Below are positions 40,895 to 52,655 of a stretch of DNA of 64,000 bases, piece by piece. Both the position numbers and the translations under genes were made by a program. The stretch is from the NCBI GenBank assembly GCA_018062085.1, contig JAGOSY010000005.1:62001-126000 (forward strand), read 5' to 3'. Each line of letters begins with the position of its first letter. Position 1 is the first letter of the stretch. The stretch comes from a bacterium (GTDB lineage Bacteria; Cyanobacteriota; Vampirovibrionia; Obscuribacterales; Obscuribacteraceae). The notes below the pieces were generated by a model. The model saw only the letters and a list, made by a program, of their open reading frames with translations. It was not told where the DNA came from and did no database searches.

Positions 40895-42346
40895 ATGTTT
40901 ACAACAAGTCGGAAAGAGACAAGCCAAACTGAAATTGTTCGCGAAAGCTTGGGTATCGCCTCATGGCAACGAGTACGTGCGGGCGTAGGTCAGAGCCATA
41001 AGAAGTGGTTTTTGGCTGGAGCCCTATCTCTGGTAGCAATTGGTGGCTTATCGGCCTTCACTTATACGCACTCTCTTTCTGGCTCCGATACTGGCACTGG
41101 CTCTGCTGCCTCAACGGCTAGCGCCAAAGCTGCACCTCCTGTTGTTACTGTCACCACTGAAGCGGCCAAGATTGGCCAAGTGGCATCGAACCTTACGGTT
41201 ACAGGTTCAGTCTCGGCGATTGACCCCTTAACAATAGCCTCTCAGGCTGCTGGTTTGAGTATTGTTCAAGTGCTCGCTGAAGAGGGCGACTATGTGCGCA
41301 AGGGCCAAGTTCTCTGCATTCTTGATTCTTCCATTTTGCAAGCTCAGCTAAAAGGTATGGAAGCTCACATGGTGGGCTCGCGCGCTTCAGCTCAAAAGGC
41401 TGTGCAGCCTAATCGACAAGAAGATATTGCTGGGCTTGCTGCCGCTTATCAGCAAGCCATGGCCGATGTGCAACAGCGTCAAGCAATGGTTACTCAAATG
41501 GAAGCCAGTCTAGTGAATGCGCGCAGCAACGCTCGGCGCTACAAAGACTTGCTCAAAGAAGGGGCTGTTAGTCAGCAAGAAGCAGACAACCATTCTACCG
41601 ATGAAGTAACAGCCTTCACAAATTTGCAAGGAGCAAAAGAGCAGTTTTCGGCTGCCAAATTCTTTGCCGAACAATCGCACAATAAGTTAGAAATGGCGCA
41701 AAGAGGCGGTCGTAGAGAAGACATCATTGTCTCAGAAGCCAACGCCGATGAAACTGCGGCTAGTGTGCAACAACTGCGAGCGCAAATTGAGCCAACGATT
41801 GTTCGCGCTCCTGATGAGGGTTTGATCACCAAGCGCCTTGCTCATATCGGAGACGTTGCCTCTAATGGCGAAGCATTGTTCGAGATCATACGGAAAGGAC
41901 AGCTAGAGTTGCGCGCGCAGGTGACTCAGAGTGATTTATCTAGGCTGCGGCCGGGCATATCCGCAGCCCTCTCTGATTCTGTGCGCTCAGTAAAGGGTAC
42001 GATCTTTCAGATTTCGCCAACTGTAGATAGTGCCACCAGATTAGGTACTGTTCGCATTGCTATACCAAATAATTCTGGTTTCAAGCCTGGTATGTTTGTT
42101 CAAGGTAGCGTACAAATTGGTCAGGCTGACGCTTTGCTCGTGCCCAATAGTTCAGTTCTGGCCGACGGCGATAGCAATTATGTCTTTGTCTATCAAAATG
42201 GCAAAGCAAAAAAACAGCTTGTTACTGTTGGTTCGCGCACAAGCGAATCAGCCGAAATTAAAAATGGAGTTGCCCCTGGCGATAACGTTATTGTTGCAGG
42301 CGCTGGATTCTTAGAAGACAACGACATCGTTGCGTTAAGTAAGTAG
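40895..42346 (+). CDS. RND efflux periplasmic adaptor (membrane fusion protein)
   Basis: 483 residues. One N-terminal membrane segment (about 42-58), then the HlyD-like plan: beta-barrel strand, lipoyl half (I-V-Q-V-L-A-E-E-G-D-Y-V-R-K-G-Q-V-L), a long coiled-coil hairpin (about 165-300, rich in Gln/Ala), second lipoyl half (T-I-V-R-A-P-D-E-G-L-I-T-K-R) and membrane-proximal domains. Links the inner-membrane pump encoded 112 bases downstream to an outer-membrane channel, which is not encoded here. Divergent from, and probably repressed by, the TetR gene. Confidence 0.93.
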   Translation: MFTTSRKETSQTEIVRESLGIASWQRVRAGVGQSHKKWFLAGALSLVAIGGLSAFTYTHSLSGSDTGTGSAASTASAKAAPPVVTVTTEAAKIGQVASNLTVTGSVSAIDPLTIASQAAGLSIVQVLAEEGDYVRKGQVLCILDSSILQAQLKGMEAHMVGSRASAQKAVQPNRQEDIAGLAAAYQQAMADVQQRQAMVTQMEASLVNARSNARRYKDLLKEGAVSQQEADNHSTDEVTAFTNLQGAKEQFSAAKFFAEQSHNKLEMAQRGGRREDIIVSEANADETAASVQQLRAQIEPTIVRAPDEGLITKRLAHIGDVASNGEALFEIIRKGQLELRAQVTQSDLSRLRPGISAALSDSVRSVKGTIFQISPTVDSATRLGTVRIAIPNNSGFKPGMFVQGSVQIGQADALLVPNSSVLADGDSNYVFVYQNGKAKKQLVTVGSRTSESAEIKNGVAPGDNVIVAGAGFLEDNDIVALSK

Positions 42347-46178: not shown

Positions 46179-47267
46179 TTAGTGAATGCCCCATTTAATA
46201 GACGGTTCGTCTTGGTGAGACGAGTGGGAGAAGTCATAGTCAATCTGCTTCGGTGCATTGCAGCCCTGCGGTAACCGGGCAAAAGGGGCGGCGCGAAGAA
46301 TAGCTTGGCGAGCCGCTTCGTCGGCTGTTGGTGAACCGTGTTTGGTGATTCTCAAATTGCCAATAGCACCATCGGGCATAAGAATAAAATTGATGCTTAC
46401 TTGCGTTTTGTCTTGCCGAGCTGGTGGAGACCAGTTCTGTTTGATTTTTTTGCTCAGTTCGGCCATGTAGGGCTTGAAGTTAATTGTTGGGGAATTGCTA
46501 TCTGAGAGTGGATTTTTCGATGGCCGAGCATAGGGCACTGGATGCGAATTCGTTGAGTTTTCACTGTGCATGCGTTTGGAGACAAATTGATCTGTGCCAG
46601 CAGGTGGCGGCGAGGCGGGTTTCTCACTTTCAAGCTTGATATCGGTGCGCAGCTCGACTTGATTGCCGCTGGCGTCATTGCCAGTGGCTCGTTTGCCTGA
46701 CTGGTGGCTGCCTGTTGGAGTTACAAGTGTCGGATTATTGCGCAACGGGTTAAAGTTGGATTGATCCGTCCCTCGCAGAGGCTTTTTGTAAAGCTCTAAC
46801 TCTGGCGAATATTCTTCCGGTGTGGGCGCATGGTCATTTTTGCCGGTTTCGATAATGCGTTTGCGATGGGCGCGCATCAGGGCTTTGTGCCGCAATGCTG
46901 CTTCTTCAGCATTTAGCTTTGCTCGTTCGTTCGTGCTTGTCGTTGTTGTTGTTGTTGTCCCAGGCCCATTCTCTTGCTCTTGGTTGGCCGGAGTCGGAAC
47001 TTTGACTGGTTCTGCGTTGGCCTGCTGTGAGTTTGCTGGTTGTGAATTTGCTTGTTGTGAATTTGCTTTCAGTGAAGAATCACGCCTGCTCAAGTCGTAT
47101 CCGCAGTTCAAAATTAGCAAGCAGATTGGCAATATTAGACGAGGTGACAATGTACTGAAGCTCCAAAATCTACTTGTTGGTCCCGTTGCAAATCCTGATA
47201 TTGATTCAGCTGCTAAATCAGGTACTAATTGGTTTGTTACTTTGCTTGTTAATCCACAAACTACCAC
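46179..47267 (-). CDS. Lipoprotein with C-terminal TonB-C-like domain
   Basis: 362 residues from GTG 47267. A hydrophobic segment ending L-L-I-L-N-C-G (about residues 47-56) looks like a type II signal with lipidated Cys. A Gln/Asn/Ala tract follows (S-Q-Q-A-N-S-Q-P-A-N), then a polar disordered region. The last 95 residues are a TonB C-terminal module (M-A-E-L-S-K-K-I-K-Q-N-W-S-P-P and D-G-A-I-G-N-L-R-I-T-K-H-G). An inner-membrane anchored energy transducer would need a membrane helix, so this one probably acts as a binding module on a lipid anchor. Relative of the TonB-C/TPR protein at 18801. Confidence 0.72.
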   Translation of the reverse strand: MVVCGLTSKVTNQLVPDLAAESISGFATGPTSRFWSFSTLSPRLILPICLLILNCGYDLSRRDSSLKANSQQANSQPANSQQANAEPVKVPTPANQEQENGPGTTTTTTTSTNERAKLNAEEAALRHKALMRAHRKRIIETGKNDHAPTPEEYSPELELYKKPLRGTDQSNFNPLRNNPTLVTPTGSHQSGKRATGNDASGNQVELRTDIKLESEKPASPPPAGTDQFVSKRMHSENSTNSHPVPYARPSKNPLSDSNSPTINFKPYMAELSKKIKQNWSPPARQDKTQVSINFILMPDGAIGNLRITKHGSPTADEAARQAILRAAPFARLPQGCNAPKQIDYDFSHSSHQDEPSIKWGIH

Positions 47268-47370
47268 TCTTGCCCCAATTTTTCATCTTCGGCGCGCCAT
47301 TGTCGATAAATATGAAAGTCCTTGCCGTCAATCTTGTGGCATTTCCGGCCATGGCCTATGATTTTCTCTT

Positions 47371-47847
47371 ATGAAAACCAATGCAGTAAGAATTCTCGAC
47401 AATCTAGGCATTAGCTACGAACTGCGCGACTATCAAGTTGACCCAGATGACCTCACCGCCGAGACCGTGGCGGCCAAAATTGGCTTCCCTCTAGAGCAAG
47501 TGTTCAAAACTCTGGTGGTTCGCGGTGATAGAAACGGCGTATGCCTTGCTGTTGTGGCCGGTAACGCCCAGCTAGACTTGAAGGCTTTGGCCAAATTGAG
47601 CGGCGATCGCAAGTCTGAGGTGGTTTCGCTTAAGGAAGTGCAGCCCCTTACAGGCTACATCCGCGGGGGCGTCACCGCTCTGGCCTGTAAGAAAGATTAT
47701 CCGGTCTATGTTGACGAGAATATTTATCTCTTTGAACAAGTATCAGTGTCTGCCGGTGTGCGCGGTACTCAGATAATAATTGCCCCAGAGGATTATTTGA
47801 AAGCCACCCATGCCACAGCTGGTGAAATCGCTAAAGACGCCGTGTGA
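47371..47847 (+). CDS. ybaK: Cys-tRNA(Pro)/Cys-tRNA(Cys) deacylase, YbaK type
   Basis: 158 residues, YbaK/EbsC trans-editing enzyme that hydrolyses mischarged Cys-tRNA(Pro). Typical features: N-terminal A-V-R-I-L-D, the catalytic-site Lys in V-F-K-T-L-V-V, G-Y-I-R-G-G-V-T-A-L near residue 91, and Y-V-D-E-N at 111. Full family length. Lone gene with its own start shortly after the divergent lipoprotein promoter. Confidence 0.93.
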   Translation: MKTNAVRILDNLGISYELRDYQVDPDDLTAETVAAKIGFPLEQVFKTLVVRGDRNGVCLAVVAGNAQLDLKALAKLSGDRKSEVVSLKEVQPLTGYIRGGVTALACKKDYPVYVDENIYLFEQVSVSAGVRGTQIIIAPEDYLKATHATAGEIAKDAV

Positions 47848-47959
47848 TGGGCCTTTAGCTGTAAGTATTCGGGTGTGAGCGTTGGCCAAGGCTGGCGCCC
47901 ATAAAAATCCACGAAAGTTGGGTATGCTTTAATTATGTGAACCGCTTGAGGATTTGATT

Positions 47960-48778
47960 GTGGCTGACAAAGCAGATGTGAAAGCAGAAACAAGGCAAGA
48001 GTCGAAACTGGCCGACCATATAGATTTTAGTCGTATCGAAGTGGACGCGCAGATGCGCGAACTTGGTAAGCGAGCCATTCCGCTTGATACATCATTGCCA
48101 AAGGCATTTACAGCTGGTGGCGCCGATCTTACTATTGTTGATAAGCAAATTGATGGTCATGTTGCCGCAGCAAAAGCGAAAATGACCCCTGAGCAGCTTG
48201 CTCGAGCCGAGAAAGCCGCCGACCTCCCGCACCGCGTGGTTGATGCTGCCTCTAATAATGGTGTCATCCCGGAGGTATCGACTTATCGCCGGAACCTAGA
48301 TGCTGCTTCTGATAAAGCCCAAGCCGCTAAAGTTGACCGAGAAATTAGCGGTCATATCGCCGACGCTAGAGCGAAGATGACTCCAGAACAGCTTGCTCGA
48401 GCTGAGAAGGCCGCTGATCTGCCGTATCGAGTGATTGAAGCTGCCGGTAACCGCGGACCAATTCCTGAAGTATCTGCCCATCGCCGCAGCCAGGAGGCTG
48501 TATCAGGTGATGTGTCACGCCAAGCCGATGTTAATCGCTGGATTATCGCTGCGGGCAGAATTGGTGAGAAGTCGGAAGTGACCGCCCGGCCCGGTGAAAC
48601 CTATTCGTCAATCGCGAGCAACTTGATTGCCGAGCGCGAAGGTCGCAGAGCGACGAAGACCGAGGTGCATGTAATGGCCACTGCCATTGCCGAATATAAC
48701 GGCAAAACCGGCGATCAAGCCAATTCACTGAAAGTAAATGAGGTGGTGAAGTTGCCTCCGATGCGTAAGGCTGTTTAG
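47960..48778 (+). CDS. Protein with 65-residue duplication and LysM-like C-terminus
   Basis: About 272 residues from GTG 47960 (TTG 47954 also in frame; GAGG eight bases before the GTG). No signal peptide. Two 65-residue repeats (48137-48331 and 48332-48526) share M-T-P-E-Q-L-A-R-A-E-K-A-A-D-L-P exactly. The C-terminal 75 residues read like a LysM module (A-R-P-G-E-T-Y-S-S-I-A-S-N-L, then N-S-L-K-V-N-E-V-V-K-L-P). Similar LysM tails occur in the protein at 53457. Peptidoglycan binding would need export by an unusual route. Function unknown. Confidence 0.7.
   Translation: MADKADVKAETRQESKLADHIDFSRIEVDAQMRELGKRAIPLDTSLPKAFTAGGADLTIVDKQIDGHVAAAKAKMTPEQLARAEKAADLPHRVVDAASNNGVIPEVSTYRRNLDAASDKAQAAKVDREISGHIADARAKMTPEQLARAEKAADLPYRVIEAAGNRGPIPEVSAHRRSQEAVSGDVSRQADVNRWIIAAGRIGEKSEVTARPGETYSSIASNLIAEREGRRATKTEVHVMATAIAEYNGKTGDQANSLKVNEVVKLPPMRKAV
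48137..48526 (+). repeat. Two tandem 195-bp coding repeats
   Basis: Units 48137-48331 and 48332-48526 encode related 65-residue segments; amino-acid identity is high in the centre and lower at the edges, so the duplication is old enough to have diverged at silent sites. Confidence 0.85.
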
Positions 48779-48792
48779 GCTGAGCCTCAAAA

Positions 48793-49365
48793 ATGGCAGT
48801 TAACTGCGTTAGTCTCTATGCTTTGCGCGCCATTGCTTTTGTCGCCACTATTTTTGTTTCTAGCGTTCTTGTTACAAGCATTTTTGTTACGAGCATGCCA
48901 GGCGCTAGTGCCGAGGAGAGCAATTCACTTCCTCGGTGTACAAAGAAGCGGGTTGGTGAGAGAGAAGTTTATGCTATGCCAAGCTCAAGTGATGCAGAGT
49001 ACAGTCAAAAACTCGCCATTCTGCGCAACGCCAAGCAGCTTTGCGATAGCGTTGTTGGTGAGTCTGCGATACCAAGTCAAGAATATCAAGCCTTTCTTCA
49101 CTGCGCCCCTCAAGTGGTTCAGCATAAGAAAGAGGTTTTGGACTCTATGGGCAAGAGCACAGCAGCGGGCAAAGTTTATCTTGTCACTTTGCTGTATGCA
49201 ATTGACAATAAGAGTGCTTTGGACGAGCTGAAGAGTTTGCAAACGTCCAAAGAAACTGTCGTATACAAGAGTGGCTGTGAAGTATTCCATACCAGTCTTG
49301 GCGCAATTGCAGCAGATCTATTGAAGAGCGGCAGATACCTCGGCTGGACCCTCGGTTCTAAGTAG
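48793..49365 (+). CDS. Secreted hypothetical protein
   Basis: 190 residues. Signal peptide with a long hydrophobic core (A-I-A-F-V-A-T-I-F-V-S-S-V-L-V) and cleavage near A-S-A-E. The mature part is helical with four Cys (C49, C74, C104, C162), which could form disulfides, and motif Q-K-L-A-I-L-R-N-A-K-Q-L-C. No family recognised. Starts 14 bases after the LysM-like gene, so probably co-transcribed. Confidence 0.65.
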   Translation: MAVNCVSLYALRAIAFVATIFVSSVLVTSIFVTSMPGASAEESNSLPRCTKKRVGEREVYAMPSSSDAEYSQKLAILRNAKQLCDSVVGESAIPSQEYQAFLHCAPQVVQHKKEVLDSMGKSTAAGKVYLVTLLYAIDNKSALDELKSLQTSKETVVYKSGCEVFHTSLGAIAADLLKSGRYLGWTLGSK

Positions 49366-49386
49366 CTGATTGGCAATACTAAATTT

Positions 49387-49497
49387 GCAATTACTAGTTT
49401 AATGTGTTGTGCAATTACTAGTTTAATGTGTTGTGCAATTACTAGTTTAATGTGTTGTGCAATTACTAGTTTAATATGTTGTGCAATTACTAGTTTA
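49387..49497. repeat. 24-bp tandem repeat, four full copies plus one partial
   Basis: Unit GCAATTACTAGTTTAATGTGTTGT begins at 49387, 49411, 49435, 49459 and 49483 (last copy 15 bases); copies differ at one base. It lies between convergent genes, 14 bases past the stop of the beta-helix gene. Two diverged units of the same length lie on the other side of that gene (51022-51069). Confidence 0.95.
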
Positions 49498-49510
49498 TTC
49501 TGCGAGAGCG

Positions 49511-50881
49511 TTACTGGTGTTCGCTTCCGCTGAGTTCGAAAATTGGTAATCCAGCTTTGAAGCAGCGCAAAAGTAGACCAGCGTCTGGACAATCGTCAGC
49601 GTCATCGCTGAAGACATGTTCGCTTAAATGATCACGCCAGATGCAATCGTCGCTGTGAAAATAGGGTGCTTTTGTTTCGCCGGCAACATAACAATCGTGG
49701 TCAAGCGAGAGTAATGCTGCCGCTTTTAAGTCACCGGCGACTCGCAGCAAACCGTCATTGTATTCACCAATCACTAGCTCACTTGCAAGTAGATCACCAA
49801 GCACAATTACTGTCGATCCGGCTTTGTGTAGCGAGTTTACAGTCAGAGAGCCTTTGACGAAAAGCATGGGGCCATGCTCAAGAGTTTTGTTTAGTATGTC
49901 GCCTGCCACTTCTAAGTCTCCCAGGCAGACGATGGCGGAGACTTTGCTTTGCCCCGCCCATGGTGCAAAATTTTCGAGTATTAGGTCTCCATCCAGCTTT
50001 GTTCCACCTGGCAATACAATGGCATTTTCTTGTCCATGAGTTTCTAGCTCGTGGTTAACAAATTCAGAAAAGCAGTCAACTGGATTGTTTGATTTGCTTG
50101 CTTGTAACGCTGCGGTAATCGCTGATAGAAGTTCTTCCTTTAGCTTTGTGAGCGGGCCAATGGTGCCTAAGTTAGTTGGATCTGCTGGCCTTTCGACTAA
50201 GGGCGGTAATGTCAGTTTCGTTTCTGACTCAGGGTGGTTTCGCTCTTTCCAAATTGATTTGCCAGCCTTGGCAAAGTTGATGATCTCGTCTATGTTGACA
50301 GCGGACCAGCCTCCGGCAATAACTTCTGGAACAAAATACTTCTTGAGTTGATGGTCTGAGCAATCAACTATGCTGAAACTTTTGGCTTTGACACCACCAG
50401 CGATGTATTCTTCTGTCGGCAGTTTGTCGCGTAAGCGAGGCACGAAGCCGGCACCATTGAATGCCCCTGAGACTCTTAAATAGCCTTCGTTGTTGTCGCC
50501 AACGTAGTATCCGGTCAGGTTAATGTCGCCGCGGACCACAAGAAACATGCCCCCCTTGACGATATTGTTGCAAGTGAGGGTTCCGTCTATGAATAGCATG
50601 GGCTGCCAATCGTCGTGATAGCGGCTAAAGAAATCGCCGTCTATTTTTAGGTCGCCAAAGCAGGCAAGAATTGGCGCATCTTCTTTGATTTGCCCTAGGT
50701 CGAGGGTGCTAGAAAGGTGCTGGTTACCTTCCCAAGCTAGGGCAAATTTGCACTTGTTGAATTCAAGGGCCATGTCTACAATTTGCGCCACATCGGATAA
50801 CCCCGGCTTGTTCTTGCAGCATTTCAGTATGCGATCTTTTACTTTCTTCACGTCAAGCTTCTGGGCGCCTAAGTCGTGCAT
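49511..50881 (-). CDS. Duplicated beta-helix (polymer-forming-like) protein
   Basis: 456 residues, no signal peptide. Two copies of a roughly 130-residue module rich in short strands. The first (about 75-200) has C-F-G-D-L-K-I-D-G-D, F-I-D-G-T-L-T-C-N-N, V-V-R-G-D-I-N-L-T-G and Y-L-R-V-S-G. The second (about 300-430) has C-L-G-D-L-E-V-A-G-D, F-V-K-G-S-L-T-V-N-S, V-L-G-D-L-L-A-S-E and L-L-R-V-A-G-D-L-K-A. The G-D-L/V-x-G-x-L pattern is that of right-handed beta-helices such as bactofilin-like polymer-forming proteins. Function unknown. Bracketed on both sides by 24-bp repeats. Confidence 0.72.
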   Translation of the reverse strand: MHDLGAQKLDVKKVKDRILKCCKNKPGLSDVAQIVDMALEFNKCKFALAWEGNQHLSSTLDLGQIKEDAPILACFGDLKIDGDFFSRYHDDWQPMLFIDGTLTCNNIVKGGMFLVVRGDINLTGYYVGDNNEGYLRVSGAFNGAGFVPRLRDKLPTEEYIAGGVKAKSFSIVDCSDHQLKKYFVPEVIAGGWSAVNIDEIINFAKAGKSIWKERNHPESETKLTLPPLVERPADPTNLGTIGPLTKLKEELLSAITAALQASKSNNPVDCFSEFVNHELETHGQENAIVLPGGTKLDGDLILENFAPWAGQSKVSAIVCLGDLEVAGDILNKTLEHGPMLFVKGSLTVNSLHKAGSTVIVLGDLLASELVIGEYNDGLLRVAGDLKAAALLSLDHDCYVAGETKAPYFHSDDCIWRDHLSEHVFSDDADDCPDAGLLLRCFKAGLPIFELSGSEHQ

Positions 50882-51021
50882 GGTTTCCTTCTTTTTCAGT
50901 GGTAAGCGGATGGTAGACGGCTGTGACTGGTCTGGTTGTCACTGTGGGTCTACGTAGTTCATGGAAAAATTAGAAGGTAATATGAGCTATTTTGTTGGTT
51001 GGCAAGGTACTTGTTCGCTGG

Positions 51022-51069
51022 GTGATTACTAGTTTATCTTGTTGTGCGGTTGCTAGTTTAAAGAGTTGC
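51022..51069. repeat. Two diverged copies of the 24-bp repeat
   Basis: 51022-51045 and 51046-51069 match the repeat of 49387-49497 in length, order and core (TTACTAGTTTA and TTGCTAGTTTA, each followed by a GTTG end). They sit about 140 bases upstream of the beta-helix gene, in the 388-base gap 50882-51269, which otherwise holds only the promoters of the two divergent genes. Confidence 0.8.
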
Positions 51070-51269
51070 GGAGCTGCTGACTGTCCTAAAGGCAAACAGT
51101 ATCCGACACCAGGCATTGAGTCAGGCATCTTCTGCTTCCTTCGAAGGGGCGAAGCTATTAAATGGCGGTAATGGCCATTTTGACCTTTGGCGCTCCCACG
51201 TTTGCTAAACTAGAGCCCACTAGAAACGCTTTAGCCTTATGAGCGTCATTTCCGCTGAAGGAGTTCACT

Positions 51270-51713
51270 ATGAATCGCTACGCAGTCATTTCCCTCGCAG
51301 CAGTCTTTTCGCTGGTGGCTACAGGTTTCTCGATGGCTCCGTGCCAAGCTCAATTCCTCAAGACCCTTCAAGACAGCTTGCTCGGTGGTCAAAATGGCCA
51401 GCAGCAAGGTACTGCCCTTAGTCAGCAGCCGCCGGCTCTGGTTGGCACGGTCAATTTGCCTCCGGCTCAGTATCTGATGACCAATGTGCAAAGCGGTCAG
51501 GCATTTTACGTAACAGTGCAGAATGGCCAGATGTTCCTCGGTGGCCAGCAAGTCGCTCCCCAGAATTTCCAGTCTAATCAAGCTCCGTTGACTCAACAGC
51601 AAACTCAGCAAGGCAGTGGCGGATTTGGTGGAATGGTGAAAAACGGCTTGGGTAACTTCTTGCAGAACCAGATTGCGCCACAGCAAGGGCAGCAGCTAAC
51701 GCCTAATCCGTAG
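51270..51713 (+). CDS. Secreted Gln-rich protein
   Basis: 147 residues. AAGGAG before the ATG. Signal peptide (cleavage near C-Q-A-Q); the mature chain is Gln/Gly/Asn-rich with a central ordered piece (Y-L-M-T-N-V-Q-S-G-Q-A-F-Y-V-T-V-Q-N-G-Q) that looks like a small beta unit. No enzyme motif. Probably an extracellular or matrix protein. Confidence 0.68.
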   Translation: MNRYAVISLAAVFSLVATGFSMAPCQAQFLKTLQDSLLGGQNGQQQGTALSQQPPALVGTVNLPPAQYLMTNVQSGQAFYVTVQNGQMFLGGQQVAPQNFQSNQAPLTQQQTQQGSGGFGGMVKNGLGNFLQNQIAPQQGQQLTPNP

Positions 51714-51773
51714 TTAGTTCTCGGTCGTAGCTTCGCTGTCAGCTAATAGCTGGGTAAATTGCAGTATGGGCGC

Positions 51774-52508
51774 TCAAGAAGCCTGATGTGCTTTCTCTTC
51801 TTTTTTCTTGCGGGTTGCCGCCAGATTGAGAAATTCAACGAAGACAGAAAAGGCCATGGCTCCGTATATGTAGCCTTTGGCGATGTGGTGACCAAGCGCG
51901 TCTCCAACGAGCACGACACCAATGAGCAGTAGAAAACTCAGGGCTAGCATTTTTACTGTCGGATGTTTGGAAATGAAATTGCTGACTGATGTTGAGAATA
52001 TCATCATGGTAATGACCGAGATTACGACAGCTGTAACCATGATCCACAACTCGTCTACCATGCCCACTGCGGTGATTACTGAATCTAGTGAGAACACTAT
52101 ATCTAGTATCATGATTTGAATTAGAGTGCCGATGAATGTAGAATTCTTCTTCGACGAAAGTTCGTCACCTTCTCCTTCTATGCGCTCGTGAATCTCTCTA
52201 GTGGCCTTGGCGACGAGAAATAGACCACCACCAAGTAGTAGCAGATCGCGTCCTGAAAATGGATGGTGGAATACTTCGAAGAGCGGAGCCTTGAGGCTCA
52301 TTACCCAGGAAAGAGAGAACAACAGCATGATGCGAGTCAGCATAGCCAAAGCCAGCCCGAGCATTCTTGCCTTGCGCCGTTGATGTTCAGGCAATCTCGA
52401 AGCCAAAATCGAGATAAAGATGATGTTGTCGATGCCAAGTACTATTTCCATTGCAGTGAGCGACATTAATGCGGCTGCAATCTCGGTATCGATTAGTAAG
52501 AAGTCCAT
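51774..52508 (-). CDS. TerC-family integral membrane protein
   Basis: 244 residues from ATG 52508, chosen because GGGAAT lies before it and the family begins with a short acidic stretch; an earlier start at 52544 is possible. Seven to eight membrane segments. TerC signatures: E-I-V-L-G-I-D-N-I-I-F-I near the start and D-I-V-F-S-L-D-S-V-I-T-A-V-G in the middle, each with the conserved acidic residues. TerC/Alx proteins export Mn2+ or Ca2+ and assist metalation of exported proteins. Monocistronic. Confidence 0.92.
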   Translation of the reverse strand: MDFLLIDTEIAAALMSLTAMEIVLGIDNIIFISILASRLPEHQRRKARMLGLALAMLTRIMLLFSLSWVMSLKAPLFEVFHHPFSGRDLLLLGGGLFLVAKATREIHERIEGEGDELSSKKNSTFIGTLIQIMILDIVFSLDSVITAVGMVDELWIMVTAVVISVITMMIFSTSVSNFISKHPTVKMLALSFLLLIGVVLVGDALGHHIAKGYIYGAMAFSVFVEFLNLAATRKKKEEKAHQAS

Positions 52509-52655
52509 ATTATTCCCATTCGTGGCTCGTACCTTTCGCCGCAAGCATGCGCGAAAATTTCAGTGCCGTCGACAGCTTAGCATTCAGGCTGTATCGATTT
52601 GTCTTGCGATTGCGCGCATTGTGAAAGATTTCGATATGGCAGTGGTTTTGTGCGT

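Follow-up and report, generated by a model that had tools for sequence, protein, structure and literature searches.

Solo arrays of 24-bp direct repeats in an Obscuribacterales genome as probable operator remnants of an AbiEi-like/Fic fusion gene

The window, by which we mean the whole stretch of 64,000 nucleotides that was analysed, belongs to a Candidatus Obscuribacter-like genome (G000) and contains two arrays of related 24-bp direct repeats on either side of a single gene. Array A (49387..49506, plus strand) comprises five units starting at 49387, 49411, 49435, 49459 and 49483; the first three are identical copies of GCAATTACTAGTTTAATGTGTTGT, the fourth carries a single change and the fifth is kept over its first two thirds, up to 49497. 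Array B (51022..51069, plus strand) consists of two diverged units of the same family, starting at 51022 and 51046, and one orientation is common to all seven units. Direct reading as well as TRF, which reports 49386-49497 for array A with a period of 24, 4.7 copies and 98% matches, bear out the five near-identical and two diverged units described at these positions in the initial annotation. The gene between the arrays (49511..50881, minus strand) encodes a 456-aa beta-rich protein of no known family; array A begins 13-14 bp beyond its stop codon and array B lies 141 bp upstream of its start. Comparison with relatives places a gene for a 274-aa protein (47954..48778, plus strand) as the conserved left flank of the region, and the genes for a 147-aa protein (plus strand) and a TerC-family membrane protein (minus strand) as its conserved right flank (51270..52544). 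Between the left flank and array A lies a gene for a predicted secreted protein of 190 aa (48793..49365, plus strand).

Pattern and protein searches underlie all statements on the occurrence of the repeat across the genome. The 19-mer TTACTAGTTTAATGTGTTG, with at most three mismatches tolerated, has six matches in the window compared to 0.00 expected, and these are the only ones across the 5.83-Mb assembly; degenerate two-unit patterns likewise returned no further such array in this genome. A dispersed genomic repeat was rejected, as the pattern searches found no copies elsewhere. Scoring with the family matrix gives seven units of at least 20 in the window, all of them within arrays A and B, versus 0.07 in shuffles, and on the matrix built from Obscuribacterales arrays the units of the two arrays reach 21-31. 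A lone weak unit-like sequence at 41674-41697 (minus strand, matrix score 16.1) is probably due to chance, with shuffles yielding about 0.6 hits per window at scores of at least 14.

The degenerate two-unit patterns were run over up to 146 relatives and recovered this architecture in further genera of the family, where the core TTnCTAGTTTA and two downstream G are kept and the remainder of the unit is variable. When the neighbour genes of the arrays were compared all against all, 8 of the 13 arrays found by pattern proved to lie directly before the same gene of about 512 aa (one copy being truncated), which is in every case encoded on the strand opposite that of the CTAGTTTA reading. The products of this gene are 57-83% identical between genera and carry a C-terminal Fic domain (PF02661). 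A protein search among the relatives identified 11 close Fic homologues, every one of them with units before its start, including four whose arrays had escaped the pattern search. Fic remnants were detected beside an array in G004 (29 aa) and G019 (45 aa). No Fic remains could be detected beside the two window arrays or beside those of G005, G013, G060 and "Deltaproteobacteria bacterium tcs-42", the last being a pair of units recovered along with the Obscuribacterales arrays in a scan of GTDB species genomes. Further pattern matches in Bacteroidaceae, Campylobacteraceae, Spartobacteria, Bifidobacteriaceae and three viral contigs were discarded on inspection as chance or low complexity.

The window arrays have the period and the core motif of this family, 24/23-bp direct repeats with the core of their lineage. 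At neither array did tblastn detect a Fic gene, fragment or pseudogene, and a Fic pseudogene in the window was rejected on this basis. The protein search of the G000 assembly, which is 88% complete and from which a homologue could be missing, returned no full-length homologue of the Fic fusion, and elsewhere in this genome only short matches to the Fic core occur. Because no Fic gene or fragment lies beside either of them, we term the window arrays orphan rather than intact members.

In the congener G002, a Fic gene does stand beside the array, and in the same slot. Window positions 46395-48787 are collinear with contig C32 of G002; beyond the collinear part, G002 continues with the Fic gene and then an array about 10 bp upstream of its start codon, where the window genome has the 190-aa gene, which fills the slot of the Fic gene, and then array A. 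By gene order, array A is the positional counterpart of the array before the G002 Fic gene. In the interval from the 274-aa gene to the 147-aa/TerC genes, G002 carries the Fic gene, its array and a cluster of MbnB-like type; in G005 the 190-aa gene is joined by several ORFs, an array, the beta-rich gene and further ORFs; G004 has a single long ORF without an array; and in G001 the interval holds the beta-rich gene plus an ORF of 445 aa. This slot is a hotspot of gain and loss, and array B sits in a stretch of it that is missing from G001 and G005. The hotspot corresponds to window 48787-51155 (L216-L219), with different genes in each of four congeners; the cluster in G002 is MbnB/TglH-like (RiPP-modification). 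The initial annotation had named two observations that would speak against its reading, a repeat occurring singly in many unrelated intergenic places and a locus without variation. Neither was made: the genome-wide search returned the window arrays only, and the locus does vary between relatives.

The beta-rich protein between the arrays is built of two similar halves of about 170 aa that are 30% identical, and has no match in Pfam, NCBIfam or PADLOC; the label "beta-helix" given to it initially is plausible. Such two-halved beta-rich proteins form a family without a Pfam model that is patchily distributed in Obscuribacterales, and a 40%-identical paralogue is encoded at G000:C56:155443-156777. 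The orthologue in G005 (74% identity) has an array on its 3' side only, that of G001 lacks one on the 5' side, and no repeat units accompany the paralogue or the distant homologues. The arrays do not track the gene in relatives; on our reading it lies between them by position, not by function.

These comparisons bear on two explanations centred on the beta-rich gene. The arrays might regulate it, as a co-opted operator or through looping between A and B, perhaps by means of an unrelated regulator, for which the linkage of array A to the gene in both G000 and G005 and the place of array B upstream of its start could be adduced. However, array A lies at the 3' end of the gene, array B is missing in G005 and falls outside the conserved upstream sequence of G001, and the assembly holds no full-length cognate protein; we regard such regulation as unlikely. 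Of the protein-bound loop proposed in the initial annotation, protein binding stands as the most likely purpose of the repeats, but the repeat belongs to another gene family. A mobile cassette bounded by the repeats, with the beta-rich gene gained or lost through recombination between A and B, is more doubtful still. The equal orientation on both sides and the variability of the locus between congeners would fit such a cassette, and genes have indeed come and gone at the locus, but the repeats mark no cassette around the beta-rich gene: the bracket is specific to the window genome and absent from the orthologues, paralogue and homologues just described, no other gene in the genome is bracketed by the repeat, no recombinase lies nearby, and the array family accompanies Fic genes instead.

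The Fic proteins were analysed with respect to their domain structure. PF02661 is present in 26 of 26 members. The motifs that define class II Fic/FIDO AMP-transferases, HPFx(D/E)GNGRxxR with an inhibitory (S/T)xxxE(G/N) N-terminal to it, appear in alignment A1 as a motif of the HPYxDGNGRxGRF type, with GRxxRF in all sequences, and an inhibitory motif of the SLSIEG type, both of them conserved. An AlphaFold2 model computed from seven homologues (mean pLDDT 84.8) places helices at residues 4-20 and 33-41 and strands at 45-49 and 52-55, a predicted winged-helix layout of the N-terminus; a single-sequence model of the N-terminal half alone was rejected at a pLDDT of 41. Foldseek searches with the model returned many Fic structures and, below them, Rv2827c (1zel), an AbiEi-family antitoxin, to which the N-terminal half matches with a probability of 1.00 over 254 columns (E 0.015, TM 0.46 by target). 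By sequence, the N-terminal half has no Pfam AbiEi match, and a PDB sequence search found nothing; the likeness to AbiEi, which is that of a predicted fold, is structural and not one of sequence.

Further homologues were retrieved by protein similarity alone. They lie, at 36-54% identity, on alpha-, beta- and gammaproteobacterial plasmids and on plasmids of Bacteroidota; another, 63% identical, comes from a contig of a viral collection. Over 35 loci, Obscuribacterales included, the strongest autocorrelation lag in the 220 bp upstream of the start was 24 in 32 cases and 23 in the other three (Saccharobesus, Deefgea and Vibrio), some of the 35 being closely related (e.g. Shinella, Agrobacterium), which makes the effective number smaller. 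At most 1 of 100 shuffles reached the observed score in 34 of the 35 loci, the exception being B. thetaiotaomicron p5482 (p 0.13). In the five homologues of 25-30% identity, the best lag was 23. Among 36 control upstream regions of neighbouring genes, three scored high, all belonging to divergent genes that share the Fic array, and 41 upstream regions of other Fic families showed no preferred lag.

The repeats are direct in every array displayed. Their coding-strand cores differ by lineage (AAACTAG, AAACCTA, AAAGCTAA, AAGCGAAA, ACGTG and TTAGTG), and units of different lineages follow a common, loosely bipartite pattern, gCAy..aWaaaC(T/G). The divergence of the units correlates with that of the protein (r = 0.75): the unit sequence drifts with the protein while the period stays. 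This covariation could not be assigned to the winged helix; residues 1-60 and 201-270 gave no more than small partial correlations. A search of open PMC text found no description of the direct-repeat rule, which does not prove it unpublished.

Taken together, we consider it probable that the window repeats are solo remnants of an autoregulatory operator array, situated at a variable hotspot from which the Fic gene has been lost. At intact loci, the direct repeats that lie just upstream of the start codon of the Fic fusion, several in number and with a period of 24 bp or, in some lineages, 23, would form an operator; the N-terminal winged helix would bind each repeat and repress the gene of its own Fic AMP-transferase, the same protein carrying an internal inhibitory motif of class II type. 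In the window genome, the Fic gene would have been lost from between the 274-aa and 147-aa/TerC genes, rather than never gained, with array A left in the slot; loss of the gene with the operator left behind is the simplest account of the window locus. Against this reading we count that no Fic remains are detectable beside arrays A and B, that the repeats of AbiEi are inverted and those of the arrays direct, that the covariation does not point to the winged helix, that the family motif does not match the S. agalactiae abiE operator beyond chance, that a homologue could be missing from the 88% complete assembly, and that a second event has to be assumed for the presence of two arrays in one genome.

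By analogy, autoregulation through the array is the best-supported mechanism, because AbiEi and Rv2827c repress themselves via repeats and CccR, too, represses itself. AbiEi and Rv2827c act on their own promoters via 23-bp inverted repeats (PMC3985639, PMC7319586), four of which lie within -1 to -131 in the case of Rv2827c (PMC7319586), and CccR of Yersinia pseudotuberculosis, a Fic-HTH protein, represses its own promoter (PMC9755527). The fusion proteins resemble these type IV AbiE and MenAT autorepressors in their Rv2827c-like predicted N-terminal fold and in having repeats of 23-24 bp near the start codon. In contrast, the arrays do not show the inverted 23-bp promoter repeats of the AbiEi type, their repeats being of similar length and direct, and the partner is a Fic domain in the same chain instead of a separate nucleotidyltransferase toxin gene. 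The likeness between the family motif and the S. agalactiae abiE operator was not above chance. With CccR and SoFic-type Fic-HTH proteins the fusions share the combination of Fic and (predicted) DNA-binding domain and the class II inhibitory motif; the match to the SoFic model is weak and covers the Fic part. CccR, however, has a C-terminal HTH and a 10-bp inverted repeat with a 26-bp spacer, unlike the N-terminal predicted winged helix and the 23/24-bp direct repeats found here. Tandem direct repeats of about 20-24 bp that are bound by an adjacently encoded protein are also typical of plasmid-replication iterons and other direct-repeat operators. Unlike with iterons, the adjacent gene here encodes a Fic enzyme and not a replication initiator, and the arrays are chromosomal as well as plasmid-borne.

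On the same reading, array B is another decayed array of this kind, which may go back to a further Fic locus that was lost or be a piece of array A that was rearranged. Beside it, the triplets TTG CCA ACC on the minus strand (50997..51005, M-P-T) occupy the position expected for a Fic start and possibly constitute a relic of one, although the evidence is thin: a 10-mer is shared with the G015 leader (shuffle p 0.008, picked after the fact), and no broader Fic similarity was detected at the site.

Other roles of the array itself were weighed against the operator. It could act in RNA, as part of the Fic mRNA's 5' leader, where it might for instance control translation, and in several loci the arrays indeed abut or overlap the ribosome-binding region; however, four arrays gave no stable structure (z about 0 to +1.9) and the predicted winged-helix domain favours DNA, which makes this quite improbable. 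Equally little weight is given to the idea that solo arrays are selected decoys: when a plasmid or island arrives, they would bind the AbiEi-like/Fic protein that it encodes and so change the dose or expression of that protein. If it held true, a solo array would be a DNA-only anti-addiction element, array A would have been kept and amplified in G000 and G005 for that reason, and G013, G060 and tcs-42, with their orphan arrays, would each count as an independent case. A neutral, slippage-expanded tandem repeat with no link to binding is the least credible explanation. The near-identity of the array A units is what recent slippage would leave, but across phyla Fic genes are preceded by this motif and period, the core being constant and the remainder of the unit variable. 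As regards just the solo arrays, the operator-remnant explanation itself includes neutral decay.

The association of array and Fic fusion reaches beyond the window. A widespread family of AbiEi-like/Fic fusions, chromosomal as well as on conjugative plasmids and found in no fewer than three phyla, is accompanied by arrays of 23/24-bp direct repeats upstream of the start codon, so that what began as a local curiosity becomes a general rule. Both DNA recognition by these potentially harmful enzymes and their self-control can thereby be tested directly, and the array can serve annotators as a signature for intact, broken and lost copies of the fusion.

Several array neighbourhoods deserve mention in their own right. 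In tcs-42, the orphan pair of 24-bp units adjoins a type V-like CRISPR locus (L030 252-6680) with a 1177-aa effector-like protein, Cas4/Cas1-like and Cas2-like proteins and a repeat array. Two further orphan arrays (L074 4206-5949 and L079 2708-4190) adjoin nucleotidyltransferase genes (DUF2204/DUF6036, one with a weak AbiEii match), and a CopG/PIN toxin-antitoxin pair also lies near the former. In Aminobacter, a second, different Fic gene is found immediately upstream of the fusion gene (L121 1-725). On rhizobial and agrobacterial plasmids (L131, L132), the Fic fusion gene lies between transfer genes of the traB/traH type and traM, that is, inside the conjugation-control region, and its array has the core TTAGTG, unlike other lineages.
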